Assembly: GCA_025558095.1 (NCBI GenBank)
Contig: JAIVFI010000013.1
Span: 434,001-498,000 of the forward strand
Origin: Hyaloraphidium curvatum
Lineage: Eukaryota; Monoblepharomycota; Hyaloraphidiomycetes; Hyaloraphidiales; Hyaloraphidiaceae
Reading direction: 5' to 3'
DNA: 64,000 nt
Below the pieces are notes generated by a model, which made no database searches, had not been told where the DNA came from, and saw only the letters and a program-made list of their open reading frames with translations. A program made the position numbers and the translations under genes. Below, in pieces: positions 1,625 through 5,732 of this stretch (the stretch's first letter is position 1; each line of letters starts with the position of its first letter).

Positions 1625-1734
1625 CGCGAAGTGTCCTCGGGCCGGGAAAGTGAGGGCCTCTTTGCGCGCGAGGCGCGGAGTTTTCTCTGCGTGCAAAAGG
1701 GTCGATTGGACCAGGATCGAAAGGGACGTCGCTC

Positions 1735-3645
1735 TTGGACGACGCGGCGTCGATCTGCGTCGATCACGAATCTGCACCAGACCCTCGAACTTCGCCGGGT
1801 CAAACCGGCGCAGCGTCGCAGCAAGTGCCGCCGCACGTGCCGGTGGGCGCGGCGGACGCGCTCGGCCGGGGACCTTGTGTGGGAGCGGCACCCCGGGTCT
1901 CGAGGGGCCCCGCGGTGTTCCTCGTGGAATGCCCCTCGCCGAGCTCGGCAGGCTCGGCGGCAGCGTTGGCTACGACGTTGTTTACGGGGATGCCGGGCCC
2001 ATTGTTTCCTGGAGCTGTTTGTGGAGCCGGACGGTGGACCTCGCGGCGGCGGCGAGTCCGAGGCACTTCCTCGGCTTCGAGTGCCTGTTTGGCGGCAGGC
2101 GGCGCCGCATGCATCTCGCAAGGAACATATTCTCTAGGATTGCGCGGCTGGATCCGCCCTTGGAGGCCGCTGTACAGGGTTCGCTGCCGGCCCCCGCCGC
2201 GGCGCTGGTTGTCGGCCCCCACGCTCTCTGCTGGGCGAGGACTGGCCAGGAAATCAGGGGTAGCATCAAACATCCATGAGGTCTCTGTTTTCATGCATAA
2301 GCGGACGCCGACGTCCACCTTTCGGAGCGCTGCCAACGAGGCCAACGACGGCTTAACACGAGACCCGAATGGGCGCCGGGCGCGCACCGGGACAGGCGCT
2401 TGGGTTTCGGATGTGGACAAGATCCCGGAGCAGCTCTCCAGGAACTGGAGCAACTTCCCCGACGATACAATCGTCGCCGCCATCGACTACGGCTTCAACA
2501 ACGTCGTGACTTGCGGGCGCACAACGCTGGGCCAGATCAGGGCTGCGGAGAACATCTACGTCTACGACAAGAATCCCCTCGACAATCCTCTGCTGTATGA
2601 AGTGGAGGAGATCGTAGCGTGCGAAGTGGACGGCGTCGTCGTGGACCTCGACGGGAGGCCATTGCTCGAACTGTTCGGCGGCACGGTGGTCACCGACGAT
2701 CCGATGCCGCTGGTCGACGACGATCATGTGATGCGGGTCGACGGGGAGGACATCATGATGGAACCCGCCGATCGAACGTGGCTTGCCAGCGACGTAGCGG
2801 AGAAGCTGGTGGACGGCCGCAGGGTCTACGTCCGCAAGGTCAACAAGGGCGACGTGCGCCTCGACTTCTTCACCGTCACGGCTGCAAACGTGAAGAAGCA
2901 TACGGGTGCTGCGCGCCGCGAAAAGGAGACCGCGGAACGATTCGAACAGGTCTTTGGCTGCAAGGACCCGTTCGCCAGTCTTGGGTCTCCGCGCACGTGT
3001 GATGTTCCGAGGCTCAAGGCCTATCTGTGCACCTTGTTTGACAGGGCGGACAGAGTTTGGACAGTGACGCTTGGATCGGACATCGTCCGACTTCGCTTCC
3101 TGAGCTATATCGATAGCCAGCGGTTTTACGGGAACACGCTTGCAGCCTGGGTAGTGGGTGGAAAGGAAAACCTGAGCAAGTCGGTGTGGCTGTTCTCAGG
3201 TGCGGCGGGCCTCGTCTTCAAGAACCGCAAGGGGAACCAGCCGGTCTCCGTCCGGAAGTGCCGCAAAAGCCTATCCTTCGCCCTCAACCCCGGGATAGGG
3301 CAGTTCAACCTGGACACGGGCGGAGAGTACTCGTCTCAGGTCCATGCAGCGGCGCACTTGTGGGAGCACCCTGAGAGATCACTCGTCTGCATCAACCATG
3401 CGGAGGAAAGTCCGGACAAACGGCCACGCGGCCTCCAACGTTGCGAAGGAACAAGGTGTGGGTAACGGCTTGTGCTCTTGCTATTGTGCCAGCATGCGAG
3501 CTCATCATTGCTTGCAGACTCCTGTGGCGCGCACGTGGCTCGGGACAAGAACTCGGCGAAGGATGTCATGGGCATCGGGCTCAGCAACGTGGTATTCGGC
3601 ACGCGGCCTACGGTCTTTACCTATGAATTCTGGCGAAAGCGTTAA
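1735..3645 (+). CDS. Fanzor-like (TnpB-related) RNA-guided nuclease, start uncertain
   Basis: Fanzors are eukaryotic relatives of TnpB/Cas12 carried by mobile elements. The split RuvC site is visible in order. RuvC-I is 'IVAAIDYGFNNVV' (near 2473-2510, Asp). The 'VRLRFLSYIDSQRFYGN' helix typical of the family precedes the glycine strand 'VWLFSGAAG' and the 'KGNQPVSVRKCRKSL' segment. RuvC-II is 'LDTGGEYSSQ' (Glu, where TnpB has DEYRTS), followed by a zinc-knuckle half 'GLQRCEGTR'. A 60-bp intron (3458-3517, donor GTGGGT, acceptor TTGCAG) then joins to 'SCGAHVARDKNSAKDVMGIG', the RuvC-III motif (compare RDxNAAxNI) with its Asp. All three acidic positions are kept, but the first CxxC knuckle is not evident. 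The first ~190 codons are low-complexity and may not be coding; another Met lies at 2294. The assignment rests on motifs only. Confidence 0.6.
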
Positions 3646-4425
3646 AGGCAATCAAGGCGATCGACTTAGCGAGGATGAAGGCCCATCTGAGCCTACCATG
3701 CGAGGAAGCCGGCGGAGTTCTTTCCCCGGATTCGAGATAGACAGAAATGAAGAGTAGTAGTGATTTCCGTCATTCTAGCTAAGCAGAACAGACTGTCCGG
3801 ATTGTGTCCGGAGGCTTTGTGGCGCCGCTTACGTGGCGTTCGGCGCGACTAGTCACAAAAGGGCAGCGGGTCCCTCTCATCACCAAACGTCTCCTGCCCC
3901 GTGCGCTCACCAGCATAGAGCCATGAGGGCCCGCAAGAAGCGCAAGAAATCTTCTCCCGTCGCGCTCTCCCCGTTGAGGGCGCTGTCCTGGTGAGCGGAG
4001 CCGCGGGGCCGGGCCCGGACGCCCACCTGACCTGCCCGTTGCCTTCCTCCCTTACACGACCCTTCGCCCTATTGCTCTGTCCCGGCAGCGCTGCACCGTC
4101 AAGCGCAGGAGCCGCATCCACGACGGCCATGCTCTCGGCTCACCGAGAGAGGTATGGATCTCGGAGGCGGCGCAACCCCTACAGCATGCTGATCTTCTCT
4201 CCTCGGCCTCCCGTGCGCTCAGCATTCATTTTCGCTTCTTTCTTTCTTTCGTTTTCCCGGGGATACATCAAGACCGAGCCGAGACGCGCGGGGGGGCCGC
4301 GCGCCGGGGGTTGAAGACCGCCGAACGCTTTCGAACTGGACTTCTCGTGCATCCTTTGCACCCCTCGGCGCAGCGCGCATCTGCCGCTTTGCAGCTCGAT
4401 CAAGGTCACCGAGACAACATGCTCA
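3646..4425. other. No gene recognised; 3' flank of the Fanzor-like gene
   Basis: Only short frames without family character occur here, and base composition is less biased than in neighbouring genes. In TnpB/Fanzor loci the guide (omega) RNA commonly overlaps or follows the 3' end of the nuclease gene, so this stretch is the natural place to look. No inverted repeat or terminal structure was identified by eye. Confidence 0.4.
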
Positions 4426-4550
4426 GCATCCCGACCCCGTGGGCCTCCAACGTTGCCATGAAACAACGTGTGGGTGATGGCCAATGGCTCGCGCGAGCTC
4501 GCGAACTCATCGTCCCCCTTGGCAGACTGCTGTGGAACCGTTGAAAACAG
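4426..4550 (+). pseudogene. Decayed partial second copy of the Fanzor 3' region
   Basis: About 110 bases match 3431-3540 of the Fanzor-like gene. They share an identical 15-base core (GGCCTCCAACGTTGC), the donor-like GTGTGGGT, the stretch GCGA-CTCATC, and the acceptor region GCAGACT-CTGTGG. The encoded knuckle 'GLQRCHETTCG' parallels 'GLQRCEGTRCG' in the full copy, and the intron position is kept (4470-4525, 56 bp). Upstream the frame shifts: 'SSIKVTETTCSA', which looks like the RuvC-II/first knuckle segment, lies in a different frame at about 4393-4428. Downstream similarity stops after TGTGG and no RuvC-III motif is seen. It therefore looks like a broken remnant. Confidence 0.55.
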
Positions 4551-5732
4551 TAGCCAGAAAACTGGTAGCGGCGTGGAGGTCGACGTACTGATCTCGGATT
4601 GAGGTCCCTGGGAGTACGGATCTCCAATGTAGCCGCGCCATCGAACTTCGTTCTCCTACACCCTTTCGGAAACCAAGAACTTTGTCCGAGTCTTGTCTTT
4701 GATATTTGTGATGCTGCTAACGTACAACTCTACAGATGGATGATGGAAACGGAGATGGAGCCGCTGGTCAGCGCTTCCTCGTCTCGATCAGCCTTGCTAG
4801 GGCGATTTGTTGGCCCTGGGCGCGAATGGCAATACTCAACTTTGCTCCTATATGTCGAGGACACGAGGGTGCTGCCGCCACAGGTTTTGCGGTACGGAGT
4901 CGCGAGATCAGTCTGGTCGCACCCACTAGACCTTGAAATGACGTCCCACGCATGTAACGGTCCCTACCGCGCGTCGGAGCCACCTTGATCCGCATATCGA
5001 GCTTGATCTGGTGCCCTGTCAGCAGCGAAGGAGGTTGTGTGAGCATGTTTTTGGCCAGATCTTGTCCGACTAAGGCCTGGTCGGCCCCGTGACCGCGTTG
5101 GAACGCTCATTCAATTTCATCTTTCCGCTACTGCTTTCCCAGTGGTGATTCGCTGGCCAGCGCGACGTTGTCCGAGGAAATGGAGGCTGGCGAGCAGCTT
5201 TTCAAACCAAGCCCGTGATAGTGGCAGATCTAGTCCCCAGTGCGCCGCTGCCCCTCAGGCTGTTGACTCCGAGGTAAAAGTCCGCGCGAGAGGATAAGGC
5301 GGGGCATGGATACACGTGACTCGGCACGGTGCTCAAGGTGGTGCTTTGTGGCGATGCTTCGCCTCACTCTCCCTCCTCCTCGGCGCCTGCCTGGCGTTTG
5401 GAAATCTTCAGATCTTTGCAACGCAAGGCTGTAAGCAACGGAGGCGGTTGGGGAGAGCAGGAAGCGCCGGTCGCCCGACAGCTTGAGGTCCGCGTCGAGG
5501 CGACGTCCCAGCTGCCTCCTCTTCCTGCATCGCGCCTGCCTAGCGTTCTGGAGGTCTCGAAACCTCGTGATCTCTGATTATGAGCTTTGAGGAGGGGCTG
5601 AAGAGGACGGGGAGAGCCCGGAGAACGGTTTTGTTTGGTTATTAGTCAGAGTGGACAGTTTTTGCCTCCGACTACACCTTTCGATTCCGAAAGGTATATG
5701 CAAATCATCTGTCAGCAACTGGCGGATCCAGT
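4551..5732. other. No gene recognised upstream of GMP synthetase
   Basis: Only short unsupported frames occur. A branch-point/acceptor-like string (GCTAAC then CTCTACAG, ending at 4735) precedes a 66-codon frame from 4736, but no family was recognised. Two imperfectly similar ~40-base pieces, each around GCGCCTGCCT-GCGTT, occur near 5365-5405 and 5505-5555. Together with the Fanzor remnant this may be decayed mobile-element sequence; that is inference. Confidence 0.35.

Follow-up and report, generated by a model that had tools for sequence, protein, structure and literature searches.

Does the window, a 64,000-nucleotide stretch of contig JAIVFI010000013.1 of Hyaloraphidium curvatum, encode a working Fanzor? 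A sequence-only reading had placed at positions 1735-3645 an apparently intact, spliced Fanzor gene with all three RuvC acidic residues, and had recommended it as a good experimental candidate. A Pfam scan of the window ORFs gave no Fanzor match, and the only PDB match of the window protein was a weak one, to a TnpB-like protein (E 0.012). Analysis with hhalign linked its family to Fanzor/TnpB-like families of the same genome that match PF07282 (E 4.7e-6), and the Pfam cut-off for PF07282 was passed by L042, L043 and L044. This supports the proposed Fanzor/TnpB assignment and membership of the window locus in the Fanzor family by descent. The genome's L045 family weakly matches Guillardia theta Fanzor1 (PDB 9cer) around EH.TSQ.CPSC (E 0.0086) and has the same glutamate spacing, whereas the window protein itself matched no PDB chain with phmmer. 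A search of viral contigs for relatives of the window Fanzor found none. The window copy lacks two features that define Fanzors, the catalytic glutamate and the N-terminal half.

Fanzor homology begins at about position 2266 on the plus strand, where the RuvC half occupies a first exon (2266-3457); a second exon (3518-3645) completes the zinc-finger region and carries RuvC-III, ending at the stop codon. From the ATG at 2293 the frame is open over 388 codons (2293-3457), and the predicted product of the remnant is 430 aa long. An AlphaFold model of the window protein alone, translated through the intron, was too poor for use (mean pLDDT 35). The search for further copies that had been suggested earlier covered the window's own genome (31.9 Mb in 55 contigs) and revealed three further loci, on C37, C1 and C45. 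The closest paralog is C37, with 68% identity across nearly all of the window exon (C37:278743-279903). C1 is a 3' fragment with 86% protein and 97% DNA identity, and C45 is a single copy that matches in three pieces at 39% identity, of which the RuvC half alone was found, frameshifted. Comparison of the window with C37 over 421 codons gave a dN of 0.216, a dS of 0.835 and a ratio of 0.26, thus indicating that this Fanzor family evolved as a protein gene and that the window frame is coding rather than a chance frame. The genome also has strong chitin synthase matches, and a search of it for a chlorophyll a/b-binding match found none; a non-photosynthetic, probably fungal host is therefore likely, and a chytrid-like nuclear genome is plausible.

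The paralogs also bear on the 60-bp GT-AG intron at 3458-3517 (GTGGGT...TTGCAG, plus strand), whose removal joins the AIDYGFNN exon to the ARDKNSAKD exon in frame. At the corresponding site, C37 carries an intron of 52 bp (GTGCGT...CTATAG), a length not divisible by three, so that only splicing can join the C37 coding parts. In C45 the intron is missing and the sequence runs straight through as GLQVCQSETDWCCGRFWARDVNSARN, and C1 carries the identical, unchanged 60-bp intron. On account of these three copies, the window intron is well supported as genuine by homology, and the sequence-only reading was correct that the third RuvC motif comes into frame on its removal.

The claim to a complete active site holds for two of the three residues. 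The RuvC-I aspartate is present (D65 in AIDYGFNN, codon 2485-2487), although the window reads DYG here, C37 DFG and C45 DPG, and Fanzors have near-exclusively DPG. RuvC-III reads ARDKNSAKD after splicing, with D398 at 3544-3546 and the RD motif in place. The RuvC-II glutamate of Fanzors lies at an alternative site, six residues upstream of the first zinc-finger ligand (ExxxxxxC; PMC10711439). Structures place it on the loop preceding the TNB domain, and the triad of SpuFz1 consists of D383, E541 and D606 (PMC11423790; PMC10432273). This spacing is obeyed by C45 (GEDYSSQYC), by Guillardia Fanzor1 (PEHYTSQEC) and by the genome's other Fanzor-like families (DEHNTSQTC, NEYLTSQMC and HEHGSSQKC), but not by the window (GGEYSSQVH). 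The window has glycine at the corresponding position (G344, codon 3322-3324, GGA), where C37, C1 and C45 all have glutamate (DTGGEYSSQ in the window, DTGEEYTSQ in C37, DTGEEYSSQ in C1 and DVGEDYSSQ in C45), and a profile alignment with the L042, L044 and L045 proteins likewise set G344 opposite their glutamate. The GEYSS glutamate that had been read as RuvC-II is E345 (3325-3327), one residue past the catalytic position. These alignments show that the predicted window protein has lost the catalytic glutamate (E344G). In the neighboring [TS][TS]xx motif and C4 zinc finger of Fanzors, the window has SSQV, but His at the expected first Cys pair (VHAAAH); C384 and C391 are present.

Upstream of its RuvC half, C37 has a 625-codon frame and an Arg/Lys-rich linker frame, which, as we read the frames, would be joined by splicing; its N-terminal half is probably REC/WED-like, judging from position and size. 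This N-terminal half was found only at C37, C31 and C39, the latter two being relatives at 37-39% identity; two further matches were too weak to be counted. A search for it within the opening 6 kb of the window found nothing, and the comparison with C37 thus shows a predicted gene truncated to the RuvC half alone. At C39 (L058), the N-terminal half is followed by what appears by eye to be a LINE-type reverse transcriptase-like frame. The N-terminal half at C31 (L057) and the RuvC half at C45 (L009) are apparently one Fanzor gene spread over two contigs; an identical 477-bp sequence (100% identity) borders both halves, and the split could come either from misassembly or from a rearrangement mediated by this repeat.

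Immediately upstream of the Fanzor remnant, the window instead has an internal piece, 460 bp long, of a larger dispersed repeat (1806-2265, plus strand), with copies of 92-99% identity on C14, C9 (two), C22 and C2 (two). TCAAAC is found on both sides of the fragment (1800-1805 and 2266-2271). The other copies run on past both fragment ends, which rules out that 1806-2265 is a complete transposon. The fragment is open in the Fanzor frame, and one ORF (1654-3465, 603 codons) spans both it and the Fanzor exon, including AIDYGFNN and GEYSS. A gene start at 1735, as first proposed, would therefore put part of an unrelated repeat into the protein, Fanzor homology starting only at about 2266. A possible remnant of a middle exon at about 1740-1800 gave a local match score of 32, within the shuffle range (maximum 43), and is not claimed. 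Farther upstream, beyond the fragment, lies a gene on the minus strand that encodes a mitochondrial ribosomal protein domain. Near one copy of the same repeat (L037, C9:336861 region, minus strand), a serine-recombinase-like frame was noted by eye (VVVYSDVLSG...ARVDRLGRNAAF).

These observations weigh on the reading of the locus as a spliced Fanzor that is intact, active and equipped with the full set of RuvC acidic residues. Such a reading could draw on the open frame, the supported intron, the presence of D65 and D398, and the acidic E345 adjoining the expected glutamate position. The glycine at the catalytic position, the missing N-terminal half and the foreign repeat fragment in the upstream frame make it highly improbable, and on the same grounds neither the apparent intactness of the copy nor its recommendation for experiments can be maintained.

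The transposon context of the family is clearest at C37, where the Fanzor lies in an element of about 5.3 kb (L007 2861-8149) with imperfect inverted repeats at its ends. The ends of L012-L018, short elements of about 970 bp, are similar to those of the C37 element, and TA is found at both ends of L014, L016 and L017. The window shares a downstream part with these short non-autonomous elements (3791-4640, plus strand), inside which lies a second, decayed piece of a Fanzor 3' exon (about 4438-4545), and a degenerate transposon right end is recognizable at 4539-4640 on the plus strand (GTAGCCGCGCCA; family end GTAGCCGCACTA) when the window is aligned with C37 plus eight further copies. Positions 3266-3645 together with 3791-4640 are 97% identical to C1. 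No transposase was recognized in the Fanzor elements, and the final 160 nt of the C37 element gave no support for a guide-RNA fold (z 0.07). Published Mariner-type Fanzor1 elements have TA flanks and may carry the Fanzor as their sole gene (PMC3627910). C37 and its derivatives resemble the Fanzor1 of such Tc1/Mariner-type elements (Bao and Jurka 2013, PMC3627910) in the inverted repeats, the TA flanks, the split RuvC, the [TS][TS] motif and the RD motif, whereas the window differs in its lone RuvC half, degenerate right end, DYG in place of DPG, His at the first zinc ligands and lost catalytic glutamate. In Spizellomyces punctatus, SpuFz1 is accompanied by ORF-less 'ghost' elements (PMC10432273); a Fanzor element beside ORF-less copies with its ends is likewise found here, although the window's family has few copies and the window copy is defective.

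Over the 103 codons that can be compared between the window and C1 there are six differences, all non-synonymous. With C37 as the reference, three changes in these last 103 codons were assigned to the window side (E344G, S356L and K417T), again all non-synonymous; E344, S356 and K417 are each kept in C37, C1 and C45. This suggests that constraint has been lost in the window copy, although three window-specific changes are too few for proof.

The glutamate-less half, with a new repeat-derived 5' end, might instead be expressed as a domesticated protein and retained for a function other than DNA cutting, such as the binding of zinc or nucleic acid. The 603-codon frame through repeat fragment and Fanzor exon would fit such a protein, but in DNA as G+C-rich as this, long frames often arise by chance. 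The 97% identity of the C1 fragment also indicates a young lineage, so an open window frame requires no selection, and the six non-synonymous differences are compatible with no constraint; we give domestication only a slim chance.

Some bacterial TnpB-like repressors have lost RuvC residues. By analogy, the window protein could be a nuclease-dead, guide-RNA-directed DNA binder, in which one catalytic residue is gone while most conserved residues persist. Known Fanzors carry REC and WED in the N-terminal half that the window copy lacks, and a binder of this kind is extremely improbable.

The locus is very probably a young, decaying, truncated relic of a Fanzor1-type DNA transposon, as judged by comparison with its paralogs. 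Against this stand the frame that is still open over 388 codons, the well-supported intron and the small number of window-specific changes. A course of events is proposed in which the fullest form of the family would be the inverted-repeat element of about 5.3 kb seen at C37, with a multi-exon Fanzor in which an Arg/Lys-rich linker joins a REC/WED-like N-terminal half to a RuvC domain that includes a zinc-finger region. By analogy with characterized Fanzors, the working form would bind guide RNA derived from the element's 3' end, and its D-E-D RuvC site would cleave the DNA matched by that guide. The window copy would have retained the RuvC half alone, directly after the inserted repeat fragment, and would have lost the catalytic glutamate and two other conserved residues. 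Its protein should neither bind guide RNA nor cut DNA; we infer this loss from the sequence, and consider activity of the window copy very unlikely.

Taken alone, the window locus is of little import, being an ordinary relic of a known kind of enzyme. It does carry a caution: RuvC motifs read by eye may select the neighbor of a catalytic residue. Elsewhere in the genome, further Fanzor/TnpB-like families are found at L042 and L044 (C2), L043 (C5) and L045 (C14), and another Fanzor family is present in about 10 copies (L046-L051, L059 and L060, on C3, C5, C6, C7 and other contigs). Identity among the compared copies of the latter is 99.8-99.95% across about 2.2 kb and, for two of them, across 7.3 kb; they carry D, E and D as candidate residues at the expected positions, and their 3' end is sharp (TAGCTA). 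Judged by its near-identical sequences, this family has recently multiplied and is a better experimental candidate than the window copy. A genome with several Fanzor families, one of them in about 10 near-identical copies, would lend itself to following, in a natural host, the way Fanzors accompany transposition.
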